Origin: Peptococcaceae bacterium
GTDB lineage: Bacteria > Bacillota > Peptococcia > Peptococcales > Peptococcaceae
DNA length: 36,974 bases
Assembly: GCA_030524315.1 (NCBI GenBank)
Contig: JAUNGU010000014.1
Span: 1-36,974 of the forward strand
Direction of reading: 5' to 3'
Shown: piece after piece, positions 21,050 through 34,014 of the stretch
Position numbering within the stretch: position 1 is the stretch's first letter
Layout of the letters: each line of letters opens with the position of its first letter
Made by a program: the position numbers and the translations under genes
Notes under the pieces: generated by a model
What the model was told of the DNA's origin: nothing
Database searches by the model: none
Seen by the model: the letters and a program-made list of their open reading frames with translations, nothing else

Positions 21050-22228
21050 TTATGAAAAAATACGCGGCGGCTCGAGATAGTCGCGCTGGCGGATGGCGCG
21101 GCCGCTCAGCGCATCGGCGAGATTTTGGCGCTGGATGTCGATCCGGAGCACGGCCTGTGCCTCCGGTGGGAGCACGCGGCTGTCCCGTGCCACGTTGACG
21201 AGGAGGGGCGTGCGCCCCGAGCGCGCCTTGATGAGCGCTCGCCCGCGCGCGTTGAATCCAAGGACGCGCACGTATGGCGGTGCCTCTGGCGCGGCCGGGG
21301 CTGGCGAGAGCAGCGCCAAGAGCAGGCGTTGGCAGCGGGCGCGGCTGTAGTGGCGCGTCTGCGCCTGCGTGAGCCAAGCTTCGAGGCTGTCGGCTGCCAG
21401 CAGTGTCTCGAGAAAACGGTGCGCCCAGCCGTCGCGGATGGCAAGACGCGCGGCGATGTCATCGGCAGAGAGGCTACACGCCAGGAGTTTGGCGGCGGCG
21501 AAAAGCTTGCCCATATCCGGGAGTGCCTGTCCCGCTGCGCGCCAGGCGCTGATGCGTTCGTAGCTTGACGCTGGCAGATAGGGCGCGAGGGCCGTCAAAT
21601 CACCATCCAGGCGGGCGCGAATGGCGCTGGCGCTGAGAAAGCGGCTTTGCGGCGCGCTCGCATCGTGGGCGACGCCGCGGCGCACGAGATGGAGCGGCAC
21701 CGCATCAGCCAGCGCGAGACGATATTGCAGCGCCAGGCGATCGTTGGGGCAGTCCTTGCCGCTGGCGAAGGAAAATCCCGCCCGCGCGCAAAAATCCTGG
21801 CTCGCCTGCGCGTAGCTCGCGCCCGCTTGGCTCGCTGCGTGGATGGCAGCCTCGTAGTCGGCGCGGTGGCGCGTGAGATAGGCGGCAAGCGCCGCGAGTG
21901 CCGCCGCATCGCCGCTCTCGCTGCCACAATAGAGGGCGTCTAGCGGCGCGAAGGCCGCCAGCGTCGCCACGCCACCCCGGGCGAAGGTCTCGAGGCTTGC
22001 TGTCGCATAGACCTGCGCCAGCTCGAGCACCACGTCGACGCCCGCCGCTAGCGCCAGCTCTGCTCGCTGCCACTTGTCCAGGCAGGCCGCCTCGCCCCGC
22101 TGGCAAAAGCTCCCGCTCATTGCCGAGACGATGCACGCCTCGGGCGCGTCACGGCGAATCGACTCAATGAGATGCTGGTGGCCATTGTGGAAGGGATTCC
22201 ACTCGGCGACAATTCCGATGGTGGTCAT
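21050..22228 (-). CDS. tmcAL: tRNA(Met) cytidine acetate ligase (TmcAL/YlbM-type nucleotidyltransferase)
   Basis: The protein, about 392 residues, begins MTTIGIVAEWNPFHNGHQ, the nucleotidyltransferase signature of the TmcAL/YlbM family. This family activates acetate with ATP to form N4-acetylcytidine at the wobble base of elongator tRNA-Met. The following SGSFCQRGEAA and CGSESGD segments also fit. The Ala-rich composition of the middle is unusual but length is normal. The ATG at 22226-22228 overlaps the stop of the upstream LysR gene by one base; a GTG just before (22229-22231) is an alternative. It is the last gene of a three-gene minus-strand operon with two transcriptional regulators, an unexpected partnership. 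Confidence 0.88.
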   Translation of the reverse strand: MTTIGIVAEWNPFHNGHQHLIESIRRDAPEACIVSAMSGSFCQRGEAACLDKWQRAELALAAGVDVVLELAQVYATASLETFARGGVATLAAFAPLDALYCGSESGDAAALAALAAYLTRHRADYEAAIHAASQAGASYAQASQDFCARAGFSFASGKDCPNDRLALQYRLALADAVPLHLVRRGVAHDASAPQSRFLSASAIRARLDGDLTALAPYLPASSYERISAWRAAGQALPDMGKLFAAAKLLACSLSADDIAARLAIRDGWAHRFLETLLAADSLEAWLTQAQTRHYSRARCQRLLLALLSPAPAAPEAPPYVRVLGFNARGRALIKARSGRTPLLVNVARDSRVLPPEAQAVLRIDIQRQNLADALSGRAIRQRDYLEPPRIFS

Positions 22229-23148
22229 CACGCCTCACCGCCCTTCTCAAGCTGGCTGCGCAGCTTTGTGAGCAAGGCCGCGCTGGTGGCATCCTGCTGC
22301 CCCGCTGCCGCCAGCCAATAAAAGGCACAGCGTGGCGCAAAATCGCTTGCCTCAAGAAAGGTCAGCCCGTCCGCTTGCAGCGCATGGCGAGATTTTTCGC
22401 TGGCCGAGACCAGGCTCCAGCAATCGCTGTTCTGTAGCAGCGCATTGAGACAGGCCGTGTCCTGAATCTCCAGGGGCGACTGGGTGTAGCCGCGATGGGC
22501 CAAGGCCTCGGCCAAAAGCCGGTTGGTTTCCACATGGGCGGTGACAAAGGGATAAGCAAAAAAATCTGCAACCAGCGGCGCCTGTTTGTGGCAGAGGGGA
22601 TGCGCCCGGCGCACGAGAATGACCAAGGCGTGTGTCCCCAGCGGCGTGAGCTGGAGGCCTGATTTGCGCGCCAGGCGCGCGCGTTCCTTTTCGGGATCGA
22701 GGGCGTTGATTTGCAAAATTGCTGCGTCGACGTTGCCGTATTGCAGCTGATGGAGGAGGGCCGCATCGCCCAGCTCCTGCAAATGCACCGAGGTCTGGTC
22801 GGCGAGGCCGTCGTCGGCAAAGAGTGCCCGCTTGAGCACATCCATTCCGGCCAAGGTGTTGCTGGCAATTTTGATCTGCTCGGGATATTTTTGCGCCGCC
22901 TCGGCAATGGCGCGAATCTGCACAATTTCGCCGAGCATCTCGTGGGCCGTCGCCAAGGCGAGCTTGCCCTCAGCAGTAAAGGAGACGCCATTGTGATGGC
23001 GCAACACCAAGATGCAGCCCAGCTCCTCCTCGAGCTTTTTGAGGGCGTGGCTCAGCGACGGCTGCGAGACAAAAAGATGCTCGGCCGTTTGCGACAGGGA
23101 CCCATATTGCTCTAGGGCGCAGAGCAACGTCAGCTGCTGATATTTCAT
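22228..23148 (-). CDS. LysR-family transcriptional regulator (first)
   Basis: The 306-residue LTTR has an N-terminal winged helix-turn-helix (SLSQTAEHLFVSQPSLSHALKKLEEE in two halves, residues about 17-42) and a C-terminal periplasmic-binding-like effector domain from about residue 90. Its ATG overlaps the stop of the second LysR gene by four bases, and its TGA overlaps tmcAL, so all three are translated from one message. The effector is unknown. The nearest non-regulatory transcription unit is the divergent ferredoxin-flavoprotein-transporter operon, a likely target. Confidence 0.92.
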   Translation of the reverse strand: MKYQQLTLLCALEQYGSLSQTAEHLFVSQPSLSHALKKLEEELGCILVLRHHNGVSFTAEGKLALATAHEMLGEIVQIRAIAEAAQKYPEQIKIASNTLAGMDVLKRALFADDGLADQTSVHLQELGDAALLHQLQYGNVDAAILQINALDPEKERARLARKSGLQLTPLGTHALVILVRRAHPLCHKQAPLVADFFAYPFVTAHVETNRLLAEALAHRGYTQSPLEIQDTACLNALLQNSDCWSLVSASEKSRHALQADGLTFLEASDFAPRCAFYWLAAAGQQDATSAALLTKLRSQLEKGGEA

Positions 23149-24053
23149 GACCCGATCGCCTCCTTTAGCTGTTCGCAGAGGGTCGCTTCTTCATAGGATG
23201 GCTGGGCGCTCGTGATGCAGTAGAAGCGGCAGCGCCAGCGCGCGTCGGCAAGGCGCAGCGGCCGCAGCGCGTCGCCGTAGAGCTCGCGGCTGGAGGTGGC
23301 TGCCGCAAGCGACGTCCAGCAGCAATAATTCGTCTCGGCCATCATCGTGCGCTGAGAAATAATATTGGAAATCTGCACAATCGGCCCCGTGTAGCCGTGT
23401 TTGCGGAAAAATGTCGCCGTCAAGGGATCCACCGGATCCTTGGAAATCAGCCGGGAGCACGCGAGCACCTCTGTCAGCGTTGCCTCGCCCGCCGCATACA
23501 AAGGGTGAGCCGGCCCCAGCAAAAAGACCATCTCATCCTCGCCCAGAAGTGTCAGCGACAAGGGCAGCCCCTTGAGCACGTTGAGAATGAGCGGCGCCTC
23601 CACCTCGTGGAGCTGCAAAAATGCCACGTCCAGGCGCTGGGCCAATAGCTCCTGGAGCAGCGCCTGATTGTTCAGCGTCGCCAGGGAAAATTGAAAATGA
23701 GCGTGACGCTGCAAAATCTCCGCGATGATTTCTGTGAGCAGCAGACTGCCAAATTGACAGCTGCTCGCCAAACGCAGCGGCCGAGAAAAGGCCTCGTGCA
23801 AAAGATCCTGCAAGCGATAGAGGGACCGCGCGCCACTGCGCAGCTTGTCAATATGCGCCAGCATCTGCCGCGCCGCAGGCGTCAGCCCAATCCCCTTACG
23901 CCCAGTGGTCAACAGCGCGCAGCCCAGCTCCGCCTCCAGCACATGCACAGAGGCGCGAATCGTCGACTCCGGCACCTCCAACGCCGACGCCGCCTCGCGA
24001 AACGACGAAAACCTCTGTAAATCCTCGAGCAACAGCAATTGCTCCAAAATCAT
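23145..24053 (-). CDS. LysR-family transcriptional regulator (second)
   Basis: The 302-residue LTTR has its helix-turn-helix near residues 17-40 (FREAASALEVPESTIRASVH) and an effector-binding domain from about residue 90. It is the promoter-proximal gene of the LysR-LysR-tmcAL operon and diverges from the ferredoxin-flavoprotein operon across 154 bases, the classical arrangement of an LTTR and its target. It is only distantly similar to the adjacent LysR, so this is not a recent tandem duplication. GGAGGG lies 8-13 bases before the ATG, and a TATACT preceded by TGG (minus strand, 24090-24095) is the likely promoter. Confidence 0.92.
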   Translation of the reverse strand: MILEQLLLLEDLQRFSSFREAASALEVPESTIRASVHVLEAELGCALLTTGRKGIGLTPAARQMLAHIDKLRSGARSLYRLQDLLHEAFSRPLRLASSCQFGSLLLTEIIAEILQRHAHFQFSLATLNNQALLQELLAQRLDVAFLQLHEVEAPLILNVLKGLPLSLTLLGEDEMVFLLGPAHPLYAAGEATLTEVLACSRLISKDPVDPLTATFFRKHGYTGPIVQISNIISQRTMMAETNYCCWTSLAAATSSRELYGDALRPLRLADARWRCRFYCITSAQPSYEEATLCEQLKEAIGS

Positions 24054-24207: not shown

Positions 24208-24426
24208 ATGATTAGCGCGATTAACAAAGAAAAATGTATTGGATGTGGCATTTGCGTCGAGCGGTGCCCGCTGGATGCGTTGCGAATTGATACAGATGGC
24301 AAGGCCTTCATTGCCTATCCCGAGGATTGCATGACCTGCTTCCTTTGCGAACGGTATTGCCCAAAGGGCGCAATTTTCGTTCATCCGTTTAAGGAAATTT
24401 TGCCACCAGTTTATCCGATTGCTTGA
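24208..24426 (+). CDS. AprB-like 2[4Fe-4S] ferredoxin subunit, copy 1
   Basis: The 72-residue protein has two complete cluster motifs, C10/C13/C16/C20 and C41/C44/C47/C51, each followed by Pro. Its pattern resembles the N-terminal part of the beta subunit of dissimilatory adenylylsulfate reductase, but it lacks that subunit's C-terminal tail that wraps the alpha subunit (about 72 versus about 150 residues). It is 60/72 identical to the copy at 28560-28778. GGGGTG lies just before the ATG. The flavoprotein start follows 11 bases after the stop, so this is almost certainly its electron-transfer subunit. Confidence 0.88.
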   Translation: MISAINKEKCIGCGICVERCPLDALRIDTDGKAFIAYPEDCMTCFLCERYCPKGAIFVHPFKEILPPVYPIA

Positions 24427-24437
24427 GGAGGAGATTG

Positions 24438-26165
24438 ATGATGAATAGAGAGATGATACAAATTGACACGGACGTGCTCATTATTGGTGCCGGTGCGTCT
24501 GGTATGTGGACGGCGAAGCATTTGAAGGAATTGTCACCGTCGCTGGAAGTGATGGTTGTCGATAAATCTGCTTCTGATTGGGGCGGGCTGATGACCATGT
24601 CCGAAGGGGATTTTGATGCGGTGCCACCAACAGAAAATGTCGATGATTGGGTCAAGGACTTGGTTTATTATTGGGACGGTCTCTGCGATCAGGAACTGAT
24701 GACAACCTTGTTTAGCACCTCCTATGATAGACTCTGCGACTACGAAACCATGAACTGTGCATATACGCGCAATGAGGATGGCTCCTTTAAGGGGATTCCG
24801 CAGCGAGGCTTGGATCATTTCAAGCTCTCGATCACAGAGGTCAAGGGCAATGGCGGTGAAAACATGCGCGATAGTCTCAATGGCGAAATGAAGCGTCTGG
24901 GCGTCAAGCGACAGGGGCGTGTCATGATCACCGATTTGCTGAAAGCGAATGGGCGCATTGTTGGTGCTGTCGGCTTTCACACACGCACAGGCGCGTATTA
25001 TCGGTTCAGCGCCAATGCTGTCGTCATTGCGACAGGGCGCGCAGGCTGGAAATCCTCCTATGGCAAGAATACTTCGACTGGGGAAGGGCTGCTTCTCGCG
25101 TACAATGCAGGCGCAGCCCTCACGAATATGGAATTTGTCGAGGTTTGGAATGTACCGAAGCTTTTTTCCTGGGAAGGACAGACGGTGCTGTTGCCACTGG
25201 GCGCAAAATTTGTCAACGCCGAGGGCGAGTCCTTTATGGATCGCTACTCACCGATTCTCAAGGGCAACACGGACCCGCATTATACCACCATGGCCATGGC
25301 GCTGGAAGTGAAGGCTGGTAGAGGGCCGATTTATTTTGACACGACAGACATTAAGGACGAAGATCGGAAATTTGTCCAGCCGGAGGGTGGCTGGCAGCTT
25401 CTCAATCATGAAAAGCTCAAAAATATCGGCATTGATTTCTTTAAGGGGCGTACCGAATGGCAGCCGCAGATTCTCAGCGACTTTGGCGGTATTGTCGCAG
25501 ATGCCTACGGGCGGACAGCAGTTGATGGACTCTATGCAGTGGGACGCGCGCGCTTTTTGGATGCAGGCGTCTATATTGGTGGCTTTGATTTGAGTACGAC
25601 GGCGACAACCGGTTATCTGGCAGCAGAAGGGATTTTTGACTATTTGCAGCAGGATTTAGCGCCATTTTCTCAGGAAGCATTTGAGCAAGAGGCCCTGCAA
25701 AAGCTGGAACAACTTGAAGCTGCGAATGCTCAAGAAGGAATTCCCTATAAAGGGGTCCTTCGACAAATTCAGGAATTGGTATTCCCATACAGCGTGAGCA
25801 TCCTCAAATCTGAGGCCGCACTTCAGGCCGCATTAGCAAGCTTGAAGCAGATTCAAGCAGAGCTGTTGCCACAGATGATGGCAAATGACCCGCATTATCT
25901 GATGAAATGCAAGGAAGTCGAAGCGATTGCGACCATGACAGAAATCTATTTGCGCGCAGCGATTGAGCGCAAGGAAACGCGCGGCGGCCATTATCGTGAG
26001 GATTATCCACAAAGAGATGACGACAACTGGCTCGGCTGGCTGTATATTAGCAAGGACGGTGAGGACATGCAATGCAAGTTCGTGCCAGTGCCATTGGCGC
26101 AATATCCACACGCCGTTGAGCGCTATTATCAGGATAATTTTGAGTTTCCTAGCGTCAGCGAGTGA
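24438..26165 (+). CDS. AprA-like FAD flavoprotein (succinate dehydrogenase/fumarate reductase superfamily), copy 1
   Basis: The protein, about 575 residues, has an N-terminal Rossmann FAD site (DVLIIGAGASG near residues 14-24) and a C-terminal ERKETRGGHYREDYP segment typical of the superfamily. The capping region has no HPTG motif, and the segment carrying the catalytic Arg of fumarate reductases (usually L-x-PRD) reads NTDPHYTT. The GRGPIYFDT sequence instead recalls AprA. No covalent-FAD histidine is apparent. It may therefore be a reductase or dehydrogenase of an unknown substrate, not a fumarate reductase. ATG 24438 and 24441 are both possible after AGGAGG (24426-24431). Codon use is A+T-richer than in copy 2. 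The transporter gene follows after 20 bases. Confidence 0.85.
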   Translation: MMNREMIQIDTDVLIIGAGASGMWTAKHLKELSPSLEVMVVDKSASDWGGLMTMSEGDFDAVPPTENVDDWVKDLVYYWDGLCDQELMTTLFSTSYDRLCDYETMNCAYTRNEDGSFKGIPQRGLDHFKLSITEVKGNGGENMRDSLNGEMKRLGVKRQGRVMITDLLKANGRIVGAVGFHTRTGAYYRFSANAVVIATGRAGWKSSYGKNTSTGEGLLLAYNAGAALTNMEFVEVWNVPKLFSWEGQTVLLPLGAKFVNAEGESFMDRYSPILKGNTDPHYTTMAMALEVKAGRGPIYFDTTDIKDEDRKFVQPEGGWQLLNHEKLKNIGIDFFKGRTEWQPQILSDFGGIVADAYGRTAVDGLYAVGRARFLDAGVYIGGFDLSTTATTGYLAAEGIFDYLQQDLAPFSQEAFEQEALQKLEQLEAANAQEGIPYKGVLRQIQELVFPYSVSILKSEAALQAALASLKQIQAELLPQMMANDPHYLMKCKEVEAIATMTEIYLRAAIERKETRGGHYREDYPQRDDDNWLGWLYISKDGEDMQCKFVPVPLAQYPHAVERYYQDNFEFPSVSE

Positions 26166-26185
26166 GAAGAGAGGGGTGTGCAAAA

Positions 26186-27592
26186 ATGTCTGATTATGCA
26201 GAGAAAAGAGGAAAACGTGCGGCGATTTTGTTGGCGATCATCGCGCTGTTTCTAGTGATCTACCTCTTGCCAACACCACAAGGCTTGTCTGTGGAAGGCA
26301 AGCGCTCCCTGGCGCTCATATTGTGTACGACCTTGATGTGGATGTCAGGCGCGTTGCCTGTGGGCATGGTAGCGATGGCGGCCCTTTTGCTTTTGCCATT
26401 ATTGGGGCTCTGCACGCTGCCGGAGGAGGCAGATTTATTCTCTGAGCCGGTACTGTTCTTCATGATTTCCAGCTACGTGGTCGCCAATGCCCTGTCGGTG
26501 AGTGGCCTGGATAAACGCATCACCCTCATTTTGGCGCTGGCCTCTCATGGCAACGCCAAACGGCTCCTCTTCATCATTATGATGAGCGCGGCCATTCTTT
26601 CGATGGTCCTTTCGGACATGGGCGTCGTCATGATGACCCTGCCGATTATTCTCTTGATTCTCAAGGCTACCGGCTGCACACCGGGGCAAAGCAATTATGG
26701 TAAGGCGATAATGATTGGTCTGCCGGTAGCGGCTCTTATTGGCGGCATGGGAACGCCGGCGGGCTCATCGACCAACGTCTTGACCTTGACGGTTCTGGAA
26801 AATACGGCCAATATTCAGATCTCCTTTTTACAATGGTCGTGCTTGGGGATTCCAATTGTGCTGATTCTCACGCCGATTGCCTATAAAATTGTTTCCTTGG
26901 TGTACAAGCCCGAGATTACCGAGCTCAAGGGCATGGAGGATGCGAGATCACAGCTGAATGCATTGGGCGCACTCAAAAGCAAAGAAAAGAAATTCATCGT
27001 CATCATGTGTTTGATCATCCTCGTCTGGCTGACCGAGAGCATTCATGGCTTGCCAATTGCCATCACGACCACCTTTGGTGCCATCCTCTTTTTCCTGCCG
27101 GGGATCGACATCCTCACCTGGGAAAACACCAAAAATCATATTCTCTGGGATGTCATCCTCGTCGTGTGTAGCTGCGTGGCGCTGGGCACCATCATCTGGC
27201 AAAGTGGTGCTGCAGAATGGATCGCGGGATATATTTCGATGCTTTTGGCAGGCAAAGGCCTCGTCTTTATGCTCATCGTTCTGGGACTGGTCATTGCCTA
27301 CGCCCATCTGGTGTGCCCTGTCAATCCTACGATTGTGTCCATCTTTGTACCGATTGCCTGCACCGTTGCCATGGCGCAGGGCATCAATCCAGCAACCCTC
27401 GCCATTCCAATCGGCTTTTTGGTATCGGCAGCATGCCTGATTCCCCTCGATGCGATTCCGCTGGTTTGCTACGCAACGGGCTATTTTAAGATGACAGAAA
27501 TGTTCAAGTCCGGCTTTTTCATTGTCATTGCCTGGGTGCTTGTGGTCACGGGCGTGATGATGGTCCTGGGACCAGTGTTAGGAATTATGTGA
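26186..27592 (+). CDS. SLC13/DASS-family anion transporter
   Basis: The 468-residue protein has about 11-12 hydrophobic segments. Features of the divalent anion:sodium symporter family are visible: a GMGTPAGSSTN motif near residue 190, in the first substrate/sodium hairpin, and a second, less typical repeat around CPVNPTIVSIFVP. Members carry di- or tricarboxylates or sulfate across the cytoplasmic membrane. Position directly behind the flavoprotein suggests it imports that enzyme's substrate or exchanges substrate and product. The start at 26186 follows GAGAGGGG. A bidirectional terminator follows. Confidence 0.88.
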   Translation: MSDYAEKRGKRAAILLAIIALFLVIYLLPTPQGLSVEGKRSLALILCTTLMWMSGALPVGMVAMAALLLLPLLGLCTLPEEADLFSEPVLFFMISSYVVANALSVSGLDKRITLILALASHGNAKRLLFIIMMSAAILSMVLSDMGVVMMTLPIILLILKATGCTPGQSNYGKAIMIGLPVAALIGGMGTPAGSSTNVLTLTVLENTANIQISFLQWSCLGIPIVLILTPIAYKIVSLVYKPEITELKGMEDARSQLNALGALKSKEKKFIVIMCLIILVWLTESIHGLPIAITTTFGAILFFLPGIDILTWENTKNHILWDVILVVCSCVALGTIIWQSGAAEWIAGYISMLLAGKGLVFMLIVLGLVIAYAHLVCPVNPTIVSIFVPIACTVAMAQGINPATLAIPIGFLVSAACLIPLDAIPLVCYATGYFKMTEMFKSGFFIVIAWVLVVTGVMMVLGPVLGIM

Positions 27593-27600
27593 TCAACAAT

Positions 27601-27652
27601 AAAAAAACTGCTCTGATCGGGAAGAAAAATTCCCTGTCGGAGCAGTTTTTTT
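27601..27652. terminator. Bidirectional terminator between the transporter and the b-cytochrome gene
   Basis: A7CTGCTC... (27601-27623) pairs with the complementary arm at 27630-27652, a stem of about 23 bp with few mismatches. An A run and a T run form its outer ends. Confidence 0.9.
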
Positions 27653-27683
27653 GTTTTCGGTATGGAAAATTGTTTTGTGAATG

Positions 27684-28325
27684 CTAAATAGAAGTCCGCC
27701 TTCTCCGCATTTGCTTGCTTGCCAGCTGGGTGAGCTGGCAGATGGCGAGGGTGATGAGGAGGTAGGTGAGGTAGGATGGTGCGTGGGAAGGGAGGCCCGA
27801 GGGCAGGAAGCGTGCCAGGAGGGGGCTGGTTGCCAAGAGGTAGAGGCCGAGGAGCAGTACGAGGGCGTCAATCAGTCTGTAGGCGTGGCGAAAAATCGAG
27901 GCATCGACCTTGAGCTGGAGCTTGTCGAGGTGCGGGGCGACGTGCCAGCCGGTGTGGATCATCACGAGGATGAAGCCGACGGCCGTCGAGGTGGCGTGGA
28001 AGGTGCGCGCCGAGGCGCTGCCGACAAGGGGCGAGAAGCTAAAAACATCCCCCGACAGGAGCACACTGCTCACCGTCGCGCCCAGACAGGCAACGACGAG
28101 CGGCAGATTCGTTACACAGAGCGCCAAGGCGACGCCGTGTTTGCGCCCGCGCACAAGGCTCTTGTACCAGCGGCGGTTGAGGACGTTGTGCCAGAAAAAG
28201 AGGGCGATCAGAAGGATGCCAAGGATGCCGTGGAGGAGGAGTCCCTGGCCTAGGTGATAATTCATCAGGTAGAGAAAGCACAGATACATGGCAATATCGA
28301 TGGGGAGACGGTGGTGTCGGCGCAT
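27684..28325 (-). CDS. DUF4405-like b-type cytochrome membrane protein
   Basis: The 213-residue product has about five to six hydrophobic segments. Histidines are placed as in heme b four-helix proteins. His32 and His46 lie in one helix (HGILGILLIALFFWHN), and His110 and His124/His128 lie in another (FHATSTAVGFILVMIHTGWH). This matches DUF4405/cytochrome b561-like proteins that pass electrons between quinol and an associated enzyme. It lies between the two ferredoxin-flavoprotein operons, which have no membrane anchor of their own, so it may be their partner. The ATG at 28323-28325 has AAGAGG upstream. The longer frame to 28367 has no such site. Confidence 0.7.
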   Translation of the reverse strand: MRRHHRLPIDIAMYLCFLYLMNYHLGQGLLLHGILGILLIALFFWHNVLNRRWYKSLVRGRKHGVALALCVTNLPLVVACLGATVSSVLLSGDVFSFSPLVGSASARTFHATSTAVGFILVMIHTGWHVAPHLDKLQLKVDASIFRHAYRLIDALVLLLGLYLLATSPLLARFLPSGLPSHAPSYLTYLLITLAICQLTQLASKQMRRRRTSI

Positions 28326-28386
28326 GATTATGACCTCTTTTCGATGTGATTGGCGGGCGTTTTGCAAGAATCATCCATTTTACTTC

Positions 28387-28414
28387 AGTATAAAGCTTTG
28401 TAGATGAACATCAA
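28387..28414 (-). promoter_or_regulatory. Putative promoter of the b-cytochrome gene
   Basis: On the minus strand TTGATG (28409-28414) and TATACT (28387-28392) are 16 bases apart. The rest of the 28326-28559 gap is A+T-rich. I see no convincing complete promoter there for the next gene, only isolated TATAAA (28510-28515) and TATAAT (28542-28547) boxes. Confidence 0.45.
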
Positions 28415-28559
28415 CAGAGGCATCCTCACAGAGCAGTAGCTATCAATATTTTTGCGCAAAAGTGGCGCTTATGCGGGATTTTTCGTTCTTCCGGATGAAT
28501 GCATTCCATTATAAAATTTTATTTATCAAGGAGAAGTTTTTTATAATGAGGTGTGAAAA

Positions 28560-28778
28560 ATGATTACCAATATTGACAAAGAAAAATGCATTGGCTGCGG
28601 CCTCTGCGTCGAACGCTGCCCGCTGGATACGCTGCGACTGGGCGAGGACGGCAAGGCCTTCATCGCCTATCCGGAGGATTGCATGACCTGTTTTATTTGC
28701 GAGCGCCATTGCCCAAAGGGCGCAATTTTCGTGCATCCGTTCAAGGAAATGCTGCCATCTGTCTACCCGATTGCCTGA
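28560..28778 (+). CDS. AprB-like 2[4Fe-4S] ferredoxin subunit, copy 2
   Basis: The 72-residue protein has all eight cluster cysteines at the same positions as copy 1 (C10, 13, 16, 20, 41, 44, 47, 51) and the same C-terminus ending VYPIA. Codon use is G+C-richer than in copy 1. GAGGTG precedes the ATG. The stop is 13 bases before the paired flavoprotein, with the same stop-AGGAGG junction as in copy 1. The two modules therefore arose by duplication of the pair, not of single genes. Confidence 0.88.
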   Translation: MITNIDKEKCIGCGLCVERCPLDTLRLGEDGKAFIAYPEDCMTCFICERHCPKGAIFVHPFKEMLPSVYPIA

Positions 28779-28791
28779 GGAGGTTGGAACC

Positions 28792-30513
28792 ATGCAAAGA
28801 GAAACGATTAAAATTGCCACCGACGTGCTGATCATTGGCGCGGGCTCCTCGGGTCTGTGGACGGCGAAGCATCTCAAGGAGCTGGACGCCGATCTCAAGG
28901 TGACGATGGTCGACAAATCTGCCGCCGATTGGGGCGGGCTGATGACCATGTCCGAAGGGGATTTTGACGCCGTTACCCCAGATGAGCACATCGACGAATG
29001 GGTGCAGGATCTGGTCTACTATTGGGACGGGCTCTGCGACCAGGCGCTCATGGAGACGCTCTTCAAAGCATCCTACGACCGACTCTGCGAATACGAAAAG
29101 CTCGGCTGCCGCTACATCCGCAAGGAAAACGGCAATCCGAAGGGCATTCCCCAGCGCGGGCTCGATCACATCAAGCTCTGCATCACCGAGGTCAAGGGTA
29201 CCGGCGGCGAGGACATGCGCGACAGCCTCAATGGCGAAATGAAGCGTCTGGAGGTCGACCGCATCGGCCGCGTCATGATCACCGAGCTGCTCAAAGAGAA
29301 CGGCCACATCATCGGCGCCGTTGGCTTCAACACGCGCACCGGCGATTTCTACCAATTTGACGCCAAGGCTGTCGTCATTTGCTGCGGTCGCGGCGGCTGG
29401 AAAACCTCCTACGGCAAAAATACCTCCACCGGTGAGGGCCTGCGTCTGGCCTATGAAGCGGGCGCCAAGCTCACCAATATGGAATTTGGCCAGGTCTGGA
29501 ACGTGCCAAAGCTTTTCTCCTGGGAAGGGCAGACGATTCTCCTACCGCTGGGCGCAAAATTTGTCAACGCCAAGGGCGAATCCTTCATGGATCGCTACTC
29601 GCCAGTGCTCAAGGGCAACACCGACCCGCACTACACCACCATGGCCATGGCGCTGGAAACGAGAGCCGGGCGCGGACCGATTTATTTTGACACAACTGGT
29701 CTCAAGGACGAGGACCGTCAATACGTCCAGCCAACCGGCGGCTGGCAGGTTCTCAACCACGAAAAGCTCAAGGCCATCGGCATCGATTTCTTCAAGGGCC
29801 GCACCGAATGGCAGCCACAGCTCTTCACCAGCTTTGGCGGCGTCGTCGCCGATGCCTACGGCCGCACCTGCGTCGACGGCCTCTATGCAGCGGGTCGCTC
29901 CCGCTTCCTCGACGCTGGCGTCTACATCGGCGGCTTTGACCTCAGCACCACCTCCACCAGCGGCTACCTCGCCGCCGAAGGCGTCGCCCAGTATCTGCAC
30001 GACAAGGGCGACAGCATCGTCGGCGCTGTCCCAGACGACGTCATCAATGAGAAAAAATCCGCCCTCGAAGCAGAAATGGACCACAACGGCATCGCCTGCA
30101 AAGACGTCCTGCGCAAAATCCAGGAAATCATCTTCCCACACAGCGTTTGCATCCTCAAAACCGAGGCCAGCCTCAGCACTGCCCTCACCCAGCTCCTGCA
30201 GCTCAAGGAAGAAATTCTTCCAGAAATGGGCGCCGGCGATCCCCACTATCTCATGAAGAAAAAAGAAGTTGAAGCCATCATGATGGTCACCGAAATGTTC
30301 CTGCGCACCTCCCTCGAACGCAAAGAAACTCGCGGCGGCCACTATCGCGCCGACTACCCAACCCGCAACAACGACACCTGGCTCGGCTGGCTCCAGCTGC
30401 AAAAACAAAATGACAACCTCACAATGACCTTCGCCCCAGTGCCAATCGACACCTACAAACACCCACTAGAACGGTATTATCAGGATAATTTCGATTTCCC
30501 TGTGGAGGGGTGA
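28792..30513 (+). CDS. AprA-like FAD flavoprotein (succinate dehydrogenase/fumarate reductase superfamily), copy 2
   Basis: The 573-residue protein is collinear with copy 1 and mostly identical over the FAD, capping and C-terminal domains. The two diverge most around residues 405-445. It shares the NTDPHYTT segment where fumarate reductases have their catalytic Arg, and the GRGPIYFDT sequence. The lack of an HPTG motif is also common to both, so both copies probably act on the same kind of non-fumarate substrate. The FAD motif is LIIGAGSSG near residue 20. ATG 28792 follows GAGGAGG. No transporter follows; a terminator closes the two-gene unit. Confidence 0.86.
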   Translation: MQRETIKIATDVLIIGAGSSGLWTAKHLKELDADLKVTMVDKSAADWGGLMTMSEGDFDAVTPDEHIDEWVQDLVYYWDGLCDQALMETLFKASYDRLCEYEKLGCRYIRKENGNPKGIPQRGLDHIKLCITEVKGTGGEDMRDSLNGEMKRLEVDRIGRVMITELLKENGHIIGAVGFNTRTGDFYQFDAKAVVICCGRGGWKTSYGKNTSTGEGLRLAYEAGAKLTNMEFGQVWNVPKLFSWEGQTILLPLGAKFVNAKGESFMDRYSPVLKGNTDPHYTTMAMALETRAGRGPIYFDTTGLKDEDRQYVQPTGGWQVLNHEKLKAIGIDFFKGRTEWQPQLFTSFGGVVADAYGRTCVDGLYAAGRSRFLDAGVYIGGFDLSTTSTSGYLAAEGVAQYLHDKGDSIVGAVPDDVINEKKSALEAEMDHNGIACKDVLRKIQEIIFPHSVCILKTEASLSTALTQLLQLKEEILPEMGAGDPHYLMKKKEVEAIMMVTEMFLRTSLERKETRGGHYRADYPTRNNDTWLGWLQLQKQNDNLTMTFAPVPIDTYKHPLERYYQDNFDFPVEG

Positions 30514-30521
30514 GGGATGAA

Positions 30522-30557
30522 GACCGCTGTCTGTATTCATGCAGGCAGCGGTTTTTT
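30522..30557 (+). terminator. Intrinsic terminator of the second flavoprotein operon
   Basis: GACCGCTGTCTG (30522-30533) pairs with CAGGCAGCGGTT (30542-30553) with two G-U pairs, followed by a T run. Confidence 0.9.
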
Positions 30558-30697: not shown

Positions 30698-32344
30698 ATG
30701 GCAAAGAGAAAATTTATTCCAGAAATTATTCAGGCGCATTTGGAAACCTTTGCGAGCCAAGGTTTGGTGCCGCTGTTTGAACAAGGGGTTGCCATTCAAG
30801 AGGCGGTGTTAGAGGACATCATTAGGCTTTCTAGTAAGAGCTGGTATGCCAAGGACCACGGTTTTTTTGGCATTCAAAACAAGGAGGAATTCTTTGCAAA
30901 GGTGCCGATTTCTGATTACGGAGATTATGCGCCGTATGTGGAAAGCAATATGCAAAGGGACGAGGGGCAGGTGAGCGAAGCGGAGACGGCGTATTACCTT
31001 TTATCCACGGGACGCAAGAAGCAGGGCAAATATTACATCGAAACGGCACTGGGCAGTCAGGCGCGTCAGCTGAGCATTCATCTGTGGAACATCAATCTCA
31101 TGCGCTGCGAGCCCAAAATGACCCAGCCGGATGTAAAAATGCTGGCAGTGACAAATTGTGCGCCGATTGAACATGCACCCAACGGAAAAAATGTGCGGCG
31201 CACGTCGAGTCAAGCGGCAAAAGAATTGTGGGAGGAAACGCCAGAGCTGTATATTTTTCCTTATGAATTTCTTGAGGCGGACATGTCCAATGACGACAGA
31301 GATTATCTGACGGCGCTCTATGCCCTCAAGGAAAAGCATCTAAACATGCTTTTTTGCAACAACCTCGGTTATTTTGGCGTGATCTTGGACATCATAGAAA
31401 AAAATGCGGAGCGACTGATCAGCGATATTGCCGAAGGGCGCATGAGTGTCGCCCTCAAGCCAGAAGACAGACAGCAGTTGGAGGGCATGCTGGGCGCAGA
31501 TCCTGCACGCGCAGAACAATTGCGTCGTCTCCTGTGGGAGCGTGGACGATTGGTGGCTGAGGATATTTGGCCGGACTTTTTCTTTACGGGTGCGTGGTTG
31601 GCTGGCACCGTCGGTGATTACGCACGGGATGTCATGGCCAAACTGCCAGCATCCATGCGCTATATCTCAGAAAGCTACGGCTGCAGTGAGGGCATGCTCA
31701 ATATTCCTCTGGCGTACAACGCAAAATATGGGCCTTTGGCAGTGTATTCCTGCTATTTTGAATTTCTACCACTTAAAAACATAATGGGGGGGGGTAATCC
31801 CCTATCTATGCAGGAAATCGAGGACGGTGGCTACTATGAGCTGCTGATCTCGACGTATTCAGGTTTGTATCGCTATAATTTGCACGATATTGTGCGCGTT
31901 TGTGGCTACACAGGTGACACGCCGAATATCGAATTTTGCTGCCGCAGTAGCGAAACCATTCGTATTGGCGAAAAGTTTTGGTATGGCTTTGAGCTGTCGA
32001 ATATGATCAAGAATGTGGAAGCCGATTGTCATGTGACCTTTGATTTTTATCAAGCGCTGGTTGAAGAGGAGCAGCTGTCACTGATTGTCGAGCTGCGCCA
32101 AGAGGACGCCATTATGGCTGTGTGGCGTGATTTGTGTAGGGTGGCGGCTGAAAAACAGATGCCGCTGGATAAAATATATTGGGTTAATAGCGATTATCGC
32201 AATCATCTCTATCGAGGCATGATGGACCATGGTCGCACGATTCAATGCATCAAGCTGCCAATGCTCAGCCAGGAAGTCCCGACAAATGCCTACGTCGAGG
32301 CCATCTATGATGCCAAGCGGGAGGTGCGCCCATGCCAGAAATAA
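30698..32344 (+). CDS. GH3-family acyl-adenylating enzyme, first (altered nucleotide loop)
   Basis: The 548-residue protein belongs to the GH3 branch of the ANL adenylating superfamily. Plant members join amino acids to hormone acids through acyl-AMP; bacterial members are largely uncharacterised. Conserved are YGCSEG near residues 328-333 and STYSGLYRYNLHDIVRV near residues 386-402. The ATP-binding loop, normally like TTGSTGKMK in the next gene, reads LSTGRKKQGK (about 102-111), so activity may be lost or changed. A G9 run at 31786-31794 encodes MGGG around residues 363-366. ATG 30698 has GGGGAG eight bases upstream. It overlaps the second GH3 gene by 13 bases. Base composition is A+T-richer than the trp region. 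Confidence 0.83.
   Translation: MAKRKFIPEIIQAHLETFASQGLVPLFEQGVAIQEAVLEDIIRLSSKSWYAKDHGFFGIQNKEEFFAKVPISDYGDYAPYVESNMQRDEGQVSEAETAYYLLSTGRKKQGKYYIETALGSQARQLSIHLWNINLMRCEPKMTQPDVKMLAVTNCAPIEHAPNGKNVRRTSSQAAKELWEETPELYIFPYEFLEADMSNDDRDYLTALYALKEKHLNMLFCNNLGYFGVILDIIEKNAERLISDIAEGRMSVALKPEDRQQLEGMLGADPARAEQLRRLLWERGRLVAEDIWPDFFFTGAWLAGTVGDYARDVMAKLPASMRYISESYGCSEGMLNIPLAYNAKYGPLAVYSCYFEFLPLKNIMGGGNPLSMQEIEDGGYYELLISTYSGLYRYNLHDIVRVCGYTGDTPNIEFCCRSSETIRIGEKFWYGFELSNMIKNVEADCHVTFDFYQALVEEEQLSLIVELRQEDAIMAVWRDLCRVAAEKQMPLDKIYWVNSDYRNHLYRGMMDHGRTIQCIKLPMLSQEVPTNAYVEAIYDAKREVRPCQK
31786..31794 (+). repeat. Homopolymeric G9 tract inside the first GH3 gene
   Basis: Nine consecutive G residues follow ATAAT within the coding region. 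One added G gives an immediate TAA. One lost G gives a TGA after about 18 codons. The paralogous gene lacks the tract at the aligned position. Confidence 0.85.
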
Positions 32345-34014
32345 TGCGTGGCAAAATGCGGGCAGCCATGGAGCGTTCGGATCGCACCTTGCCTGAGCGG
32401 CTTTTGGAAATTCCTAGAGAATGCTTGTATTGGGACAGAGATGAGTTGTTTTCGGATTGTCGGGCACTACAAACCAAAATCCTGCGTGAAATATTGTCTC
32501 AGGCAGAGGGCAGCGTCTACGGCCAAACTCATGGCATTAGTGGGAAGATGACGCCGGAGGCCTATCAAAATCAGGTGCCAATCTCCACCTATGGCGATTA
32601 TCTGCCCTATATTACTGCCGAATGTGAGCAAGGCGAGGCCAACCAGCTCTATCATGCAGATACGGAGATGGTCGTTGCCACCACGGGGAGCACAGGGAAA
32701 ATGAAGCTCTTTTTGGAAAGCGCTGCTGGCAATGCGGCCAAGCTTCTCGTCATGGCCATTCGCGGCATGTATATGAGCGATGTGTTGCCGATCACTCGCG
32801 ACAACGAGGCGAAAAATCTCACCATTTCTAATTATGAGCAGCTCGGCCATACGCCATCGGGCAAGCCGATTTTGCGGGCGTCTGGTCAAACCGCGCGCAA
32901 TTTGCGCAAGAAAAGCAGCAATATGAACATCCTCACGGTGGATTTTTGGGAAACGGCCGGGTTGACTGCTGGTGATAGAGATTATCTCATGGCGGTTTTT
33001 GCGCTGTCAGAGATTCGCCTGAGCAAAATTTTTTGCAATAACCTCATTCATTTTGGCAGGCTCCTGGACCTCATCAACGCGCGTGGGGCAGAGATGATCG
33101 CAGATCTGCGCAAGGGCGCGTTTTCATTGCCGTTGCCTGCTGCCACCAAGGCGCGATTGGATGGGATGCTTGTCGCTGATCCTGCGCGTGCAGACCTGCT
33201 CCAATCCATATGGGACCGTCAGGGCAAGCTCTTTGCGACGCCTGAGGATATTCACGCCGTTTGGCCGCAATGTCGTATGGCCAGCTGCTGGCTATCGGGC
33301 TCGGTGGGACGCGATGCACGCGAGGTCCTCGCACGTATGCCAAAGGGCATCAAGTGCTTCGACATGGGCTATGGCGCCAGTGAGGGTAAGCTCAATGTGC
33401 CCATGAAGCTGGCGTGTTCCTCGGGAGCAGCAGCGGTATTTTCGGTTTTCTACGAATTTCGTCCACTGACAAAGGGGGCGCGTCCGCTCTTTATGTGGGA
33501 GGTGGAGGATGGCGCCTATTATGAGCTCATCATTACCACCTATTCCGGCCTGTATCGTTACAATATGCTGGATGTGGTGCGTATTGATGGCTTTTTCGGC
33601 GATACGCCAAATATTGTTTTCTGTGGCAAGAGCACCGAATATGTAACGGTGGATGGCCAGCGTTTATACAGCTACGAAATCTCCGATCTAATTTTTCAGC
33701 TGGAACAAGCCCGCCGCTGGCGGTTTGATGTCATGCAGGTAACGGTAGAAAACGGGCAGTTGATGTTTGTTTTGGGCAGCGGTGCACCCGTCGACTATCA
33801 AGAAGTGTTTGCCGTATTAGACGACGCCTTGCGACAGCGCTGGCATTTTGGCTGCGGTGGTCTTTATGTAACCTGTGCAGCGTACAAGACCCGCGCCTTT
33901 GATGCGCGCGTGCGTGACAATCGCGGGGCTTGTGGTATCAAGCTGCCAATTGTGCTCACTGCGCCGCCAAAAGCAGAAGACATTGCTCAGTTTATTCCAG
34001 CGGATTCAAAATAA
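32332..34014 (+). CDS. GH3-family acyl-adenylating enzyme, second
   Basis: This 560-residue GH3-family protein is homologous to its upstream neighbour along most of its length. It retains the nucleotide-binding loop VATTGSTGKMK (about 115-125), the YGASEG motif and the TYSGLYRYNMLDVVRI motif, so it is expected to be catalytically competent. By analogy it would activate a carboxylic acid as acyl-AMP and transfer it to an amine or thiol; the substrates are unknown. GGGAGG at 32319-32324 supports ATG 32332, and ATG 32344 is a less favoured in-frame alternative. The overlap with the first gene suggests coupled synthesis, possibly a hetero-oligomer. A 19-bp hairpin ends the operon. Confidence 0.86.
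   Translation: MPEIMRGKMRAAMERSDRTLPERLLEIPRECLYWDRDELFSDCRALQTKILREILSQAEGSVYGQTHGISGKMTPEAYQNQVPISTYGDYLPYITAECEQGEANQLYHADTEMVVATTGSTGKMKLFLESAAGNAAKLLVMAIRGMYMSDVLPITRDNEAKNLTISNYEQLGHTPSGKPILRASGQTARNLRKKSSNMNILTVDFWETAGLTAGDRDYLMAVFALSEIRLSKIFCNNLIHFGRLLDLINARGAEMIADLRKGAFSLPLPAATKARLDGMLVADPARADLLQSIWDRQGKLFATPEDIHAVWPQCRMASCWLSGSVGRDAREVLARMPKGIKCFDMGYGASEGKLNVPMKLACSSGAAAVFSVFYEFRPLTKGARPLFMWEVEDGAYYELIITTYSGLYRYNMLDVVRIDGFFGDTPNIVFCGKSTEYVTVDGQRLYSYEISDLIFQLEQARRWRFDVMQVTVENGQLMFVLGSGAPVDYQEVFAVLDDALRQRWHFGCGGLYVTCAAYKTRAFDARVRDNRGACGIKLPIVLTAPPKAEDIAQFIPADSK

Follow-up and report, generated by a model that had tools for sequence, protein, structure and literature searches.

A stretch of 36,974 nucleotides from a Peptococcaceae bacterium (contig JAUNGU010000014.1; hereafter, the window) carries at 24208-30513 two paralogous gene pairs, modules 1 and 2, each encoding a small iron-sulfur subunit (beta) followed by a flavin adenine dinucleotide (FAD) flavoprotein (alpha) (Table 1). 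The betas are 2[4Fe-4S] proteins in which CxxCxxCxxxCP occurs twice, and both alphas match PF00890 (FAD_binding_2, ~108 bits) and PF02910 (Succ_DH_flav_C, 60-67 bits), the gathering scores being 20.4 and 20.8. The alpha starts were set at the first ATG (24441 and 28792), the open reading frame listing having upstream TTG starts; the proteins begin directly at the FAD motif, and no transmembrane segment was found in them by a hydropathy scan.

The two alphas share 71% amino acid identity (dS 1.9, dN 0.23, dN/dS ~0.12) and the two betas 83%, and both subunits are under purifying selection. Alpha residues 241-280, which hold the motifs WEGQ and NTD, are 93% identical between the copies. Given this identity and the low dN/dS, both copies are maintained and probably see similar substrates. 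The anatomy agrees with the original prediction, made from the DNA letters and their translations, of two paralogous modules with a 72-residue beta and a flavoprotein of about 575 residues.

Table 1 Features in and around the two modules of the window.
Feature	Position	Strand	Description
LysR regulator 2	22228..23148	-	306 aa; PF00126/PF03466; 4-bp overlap with the LysR regulator 1 gene
LysR regulator 1	23145..24053	-	302 aa; PF03466/PF00126; divergent from module 1 across ~154 bp
Module 1 beta	24208..24426	+	72 aa, 2[4Fe-4S]; CMTC where AprB has CWEC
Module 1 alpha	24441..26165	+	574 aa FAD flavoprotein, clade A
DASS-family sodium-coupled anion symporter	26186..27592	+	TIGR00785 above its cut-off, PF00939
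Intrinsic terminator behind the DASS transporter	27598..27655	+ (folds on both strands)	fold -34.9 kcal/mol; z -7.9 on +, z -8.2 on -
Small membrane protein between the modules	27684..28367	-	divergent from module 2 beta; DUF4405 match sub-threshold; three hydrophobic segments (simple scan)
Module 2 beta	28560..28778	+	72 aa, 2[4Fe-4S]
Module 2 alpha	28792..30513	+	573 aa FAD flavoprotein, clade A
Intrinsic terminator just behind module 2 alpha	30521..30554	+	fold -28.7 kcal/mol, z -6.2
Tandem GH3-family acyl-adenylating genes	30698..34014		36% identical; far under the OlsH cut-off; own transcription unit

A clade covered by no curated family model

Relatives were collected by searches over 1012 genomes in all, plus one single-protein scan of genome contigs that gave one locus (genomes and loci carry G and L numbers below). 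Nine full members in five genomes make up what we call clade A: two in the window host (G000), one in G005, one in G008, two in G342 and three in G428, an Oscillospiraceae metagenome-assembled genome. The distribution is patchy, with the host and one other genome being the only hits among 398 phylum-sampled genomes at E<=1e-90. A search of viral contigs returned no relatives, and the relatives from a plasmid search all had <30% identity; three of these were used as tree references. The host assembly (87% complete) holds only four flavoproteins of the superfamily at E<=0.001, two of clade A and two of a type B described below, and no FrdA, SdhA or NadB relative was seen in it at this threshold.

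In a tree of 37 sequences (IQ-TREE, LG+C20, 8a8o left out), clade A lies on one side of a branch with support of 100/100. Its nearest neighbours are FAD proteins of an Ilyobacter polytropus plasmid (L040) together with L018/L027 (95/92); AprA, AprA-like, PRK08275-type and B sequences group together on the other side (96/92). Approximately unbiased (AU) tests rejected the grouping of clade A with AprA and AprA-like proteins (p=0.0003) and with B (p=0.001). Holding it together with FrdA/SdhA/NadB was borderline (p=0.0515), and the best tree sets it apart. Identity to module 2 alpha is 46-71% across the nine sequences with 125 invariant columns, indicating that a conserved pocket has been kept.

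Module 2 alpha scored highest with the NCBIfam models PRK08275 (217 bits, cut-off 587) and TfrA (190, cut-off 718) and low with aprA (75, cut-off 642); the PRK08275 model (NF006131) gave 202 bits with module 1 alpha. Against solved structures, the clade A profile reached 177 bits with the 3'-phosphoadenylylsulfate (PAPS) reductase 8a8o, 170 with SdhA, 150 with FrdA, 146 with NadB and 127 with AprA. Clade A is real, well supported and covered by no curated family model. No description of it was found in literature searches of open-licence papers, and it is uncharacterised, being best read as a variant within a known enzyme superfamily.

Residues of the pocket and of the beta subunit

In a column-wise alignment at 25% identity, whose exact columns are somewhat doubtful in the gapped cap region, the FrdA residues His232, Glu245, Arg287, His355 and Arg390 (E. 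coli numbering without the first Met) are all absent in 9/9 clade A sequences, in line with what had been predicted for the window proteins, and the Arg390 column is Tyr throughout. At the position of the covalent-FAD His44 of FrdA all nine have Gly, so the FAD is probably non-covalent. The same fold family with FAD_binding_2 and Succ_DH_flav_C is shared with FrdA and SdhA, and the NCBIfam models for these enzymes match, far under their curated cut-offs, as does the Pfam pair by which automatic annotation would call the alphas genuine flavoproteins of fumarate reductase or succinate dehydrogenase. We regard that identity as very improbable, since not only the substrate His and Arg residues and the flavin-binding His are missing, but the operon has no FrdB-type subunit or membrane anchor, its partners being a 72-residue ferredoxin-type beta and a transporter, and no UbiA was found in the host.

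The active-site residues of AprA are likewise changed. Its Arg265 and His398 columns are R and H in 10/10 AprA and AprA-like sequences; clade A has T/S/I/L and L/F/M/T/Q instead. The column of FrdA His355 and AprA His398 holds His in AprA, AprA-like, PRK08275-type, Ilyobacter, FrdA, SdhA and NadB proteins, versus 0/9 in clade A. At the G[DE] column, eight clade A sequences have Arg and one has Thr, compared with D/E in 25 of the 28 other rows, the last three having I, M and N. Invariant in clade A are WGGLM, PQRxL, WEGQ, NTD, R371 (position in module 2 alpha) and YxGGF. As described in the original prediction, the window alphas have GRGPIYFDT and NTDPHYTT and lack HPTG. Because two members have NTDNN, the His of NTDPHYTT is variable and cannot safely be proposed as catalytic. 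An AlphaFold2 model of module 2 alpha from a 4-row alignment was too poor to map the pocket (pLDDT 48.9).

The window betas have 72 residues versus 132 positions in the AprB model TIGR02060, and thus lack the AprB C-terminal tail, as had been noted. All nine clade A betas have CMTC, in which Met replaces the electron-transfer Trp of AprB, Trp-B48, located between cluster I and the FAD (residue named in PMC2211403). Among the betas read, CWxC stands at this position in AprB (CWEC in all four), AprA-like, PRK08275-type and B proteins, and the betas of the tree neighbours on the clade A side have CMCC, CMSC or CQLC; the presence or lack of the Trp therefore agrees with the split in the tree.

Clade A is built like AprBA, a soluble FAD alpha with a small 2[4Fe-4S] beta and a GRGP-type cap motif, but does not belong to it. 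The suggestion that the modules are nearer to adenylylsulfate (APS) reductase than to FrdA was not borne out, considering the missing Arg265 and His398, the Met in the beta, the AU tests and the order of the NCBIfam scores. The accompanying caution that a fumarate reductase or AprBA label would mislead proved right, both labels being contradicted by residue, beta and clade features. As far as the comparison could be run, clade A clusters inside neither AprA nor FrdA with substrate residues kept.

A diverged AprBA could also act on a sulfur compound (APS, PAPS, sulfite or sulfonate). The PAPS reductase of Methanothermococcus thermolithotrophicus, an alpha-beta enzyme with a ferredoxin-like beta, is the top structure match and is described as APSR-derived (PMC10322725). 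Small-beta PRK08275-type relatives sit with ABC transporter genes, once with a sulfite exporter gene, and the Pfam name of the window transporter is Na_sulph_symp. We nevertheless give a sulfur substrate little credence: 8a8o, itself absent from the tree, is a remote match to module 2 alpha alone (84 bits), clade A falls outside the AprA and AprA-like clade, the AprA residues and the beta Trp are replaced in 9/9, and, as predicted for the surroundings of the modules, the host assembly has no AprA above the curated cut-off and no sulfur gene was present among the neighbours scanned.

Several relatives deserve mention in their own right. Members of the PRK08275 type (L038, L039) resemble clade A in pairing a flavoprotein with a ferredoxin gene, but differ in retaining His at the FrdA His355 column and Trp in the beta. 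Both encode a HEAT-repeat protein as well and lie with ABC transporter genes, L039 adding Mrp and sulfite exporter TauE genes, a candidate sulfur-compound operon. The Ilyobacter proteins and L018/L027 share a beta without Trp with clade A and are likewise uncharacterised; their neighbourhoods differ, and Ilyobacter keeps the His column. On the Ilyobacter plasmid (L040, 4033-10466), three FAD proteins are encoded in one operon with a small ferredoxin and Tat genes, and a flavin mononucleotide-binding protein lies upstream. AprA-like alphas (L048-L052; 414-450 bits on TIGR02061, cut-off 642), with CWDC in the three betas read, form a separate clade in the phylum, and at L025 (5602-9941) genes for a glycyl radical enzyme (under the TIGR01774 cut-off) and an activase-like protein come directly after an AprBA-like alpha and beta.

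Gene neighbourhoods

The DASS symporter gene starts ~20 bp after module 1 alpha and is probably on the same transcript. The divergent arrangement of the LysR gene and module 1 is typical of, and suggests, LysR control. LysR genes also occur near clade A modules in L005, L011, L013 and L024 (called by Pfam in the window; elsewhere by eye or from BLAST similarity), and in L013 a tandem LysR pair again precedes the module.

An anion-type transporter gene directly adjoins 6/9 clade A modules (raw count). The transporters are of several unrelated kinds, DASS in the window, MFS in L005, CitMHS/DASS-type in L012 and L013, and TRAP in L011 and L023, which points to imported organic anions. An amidohydrolase encoded in L013 is closest to decarboxylases of gamma-resorcylate and 5-carboxyvanillate, and L024 encodes an old yellow enzyme homologue; together they hint at unsaturated or aromatic acids.

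A second uncharacterised beta-alpha type, B (alpha of ~558 residues, beta of ~80 residues with CWHC), is often found near clade A and anion transporters (B loci L005, L011, L012, L014, L023, L024 and L004). B lies within ~5 kb of clade A in 6/9 cases (L005, L011 twice, L012, L023 and L024), and other contigs of the host carry two B modules. Clade A might accordingly serve as an electron-transfer partner of B and be no catalyst alone, an idea we consider improbable in view of its strongly conserved pocket and the lack of a B module nearby in the window or L013. One host B module (L014, 507-5571, minus strand) stands beside an old yellow enzyme homologue, two amidohydrolase_2 genes, a DASS-like transporter and a MatC carrier, a cluster suggestive of a catabolic pathway for an aromatic or unsaturated acid.

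Two further features of the window concern other genes. The two GH3 genes were ruled out as part of module 2, with a strong terminator (Table 1) intervening; to our knowledge, GH3-family genes are uncommon in bacteria, and no homologue was present in the clade A neighbourhoods fetched. The product of the gene between the modules could be a heme-b membrane protein, and no homologue of it was found in the other clade A loci.

Electron transfer and proposed function

No UbiA prenyltransferase was found in the host or in G428, and one is present in all 14 controls; quinone-linked respiration is therefore unlikely in the window host. No RnfC scored above its cut-off in the host, and among the clade A genomes only G428 has one. 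The only RnfC-like gene of the host, judged by eye, is a PduS-like homologue in an apparent glycyl-radical microcompartment operon (L053, 11-11414) with genes for a glycyl radical enzyme, an activase-like protein and bacterial microcompartment-type shell proteins, and it was rejected as evidence of Rnf. With neither UbiA nor RnfC over cut-off, the electron donor is most simply taken to be of the ferredoxin type. The original prediction of a distinct respiratory reductase or dehydrogenase therefore stands as to a distinct oxidoreductase; a respiratory role, if it means one with quinones, is unlikely for this host.

From the gene anatomy, cofactor motifs, missing residues, clade, neighbourhood pattern and lack of a quinone prenyltransferase in the assembly, all directly observed, we favour, with about even confidence, the reading of clade A as a soluble cytosolic ferredoxin-linked reductase (or dehydrogenase) of an imported organic acid. 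The two [4Fe-4S] clusters of the beta would exchange electrons with the non-covalent FAD of the alpha in an AprBA-like build, and the rebuilt pocket would probably exclude fumarate/succinate and APS as substrates. The co-encoded symporter may import an organic carboxylate, perhaps an unsaturated one or one derived from an aromatic compound, which the alpha-beta enzyme would reduce with reduced ferredoxin or flavodoxin as donor, providing an electron sink for a fermenting anaerobe, with the modules under LysR control.

Several points weigh against this reading. DASS and TRAP families carry inorganic or sulfonate anions too, and three of the nine modules (window module 2, one in L011, and L024) have no directly adjacent transporter. 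UbiA-type genes are present in G005, G008 and G342, making quinone coupling possible there. The clade A genomes are incomplete, and we infer the substrate class, the reaction direction and the electron donor.

The direction could also be reversed, with the imported acid dehydrogenated and the electrons passed into ferredoxin for fermentation. The anatomy would be the same, the transporter and LysR context fits catabolism equally, and FrdA-type flavoproteins run in both directions. Oxidation of saturated acids to ferredoxin is usually uphill, however, and no downstream coenzyme A or hydratase pathway was seen in the window operons, leaving a dehydrogenase the less likely direction, although the strongest of the alternatives considered here.

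The residues of these genes contradict the fumarate reductase and APS reductase names of the models that they match, and metabolic models built from such labels would be wrong. Numerous fumarate reductase flavoprotein paralogues that lack an explanation have already been noted, 19 of them in Desulfitobacterium hafniense (PMC3306737). More tentatively than the reductase reading itself, clade A may represent an enzyme class of its own, acting on a new substrate through a new pocket chemistry in which conserved Trp, Glu, Asn, Asp and Tyr replace the His/Arg set, and count among several cytosolic, ferredoxin-linked reductases of organic acids that serve as quinone-free electron sinks in some anaerobes. 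If the reductase reading is right, quinone-free fermenters would dump electrons on imported organic acids via a family of soluble flavoproteins to which no curated model gives a name.

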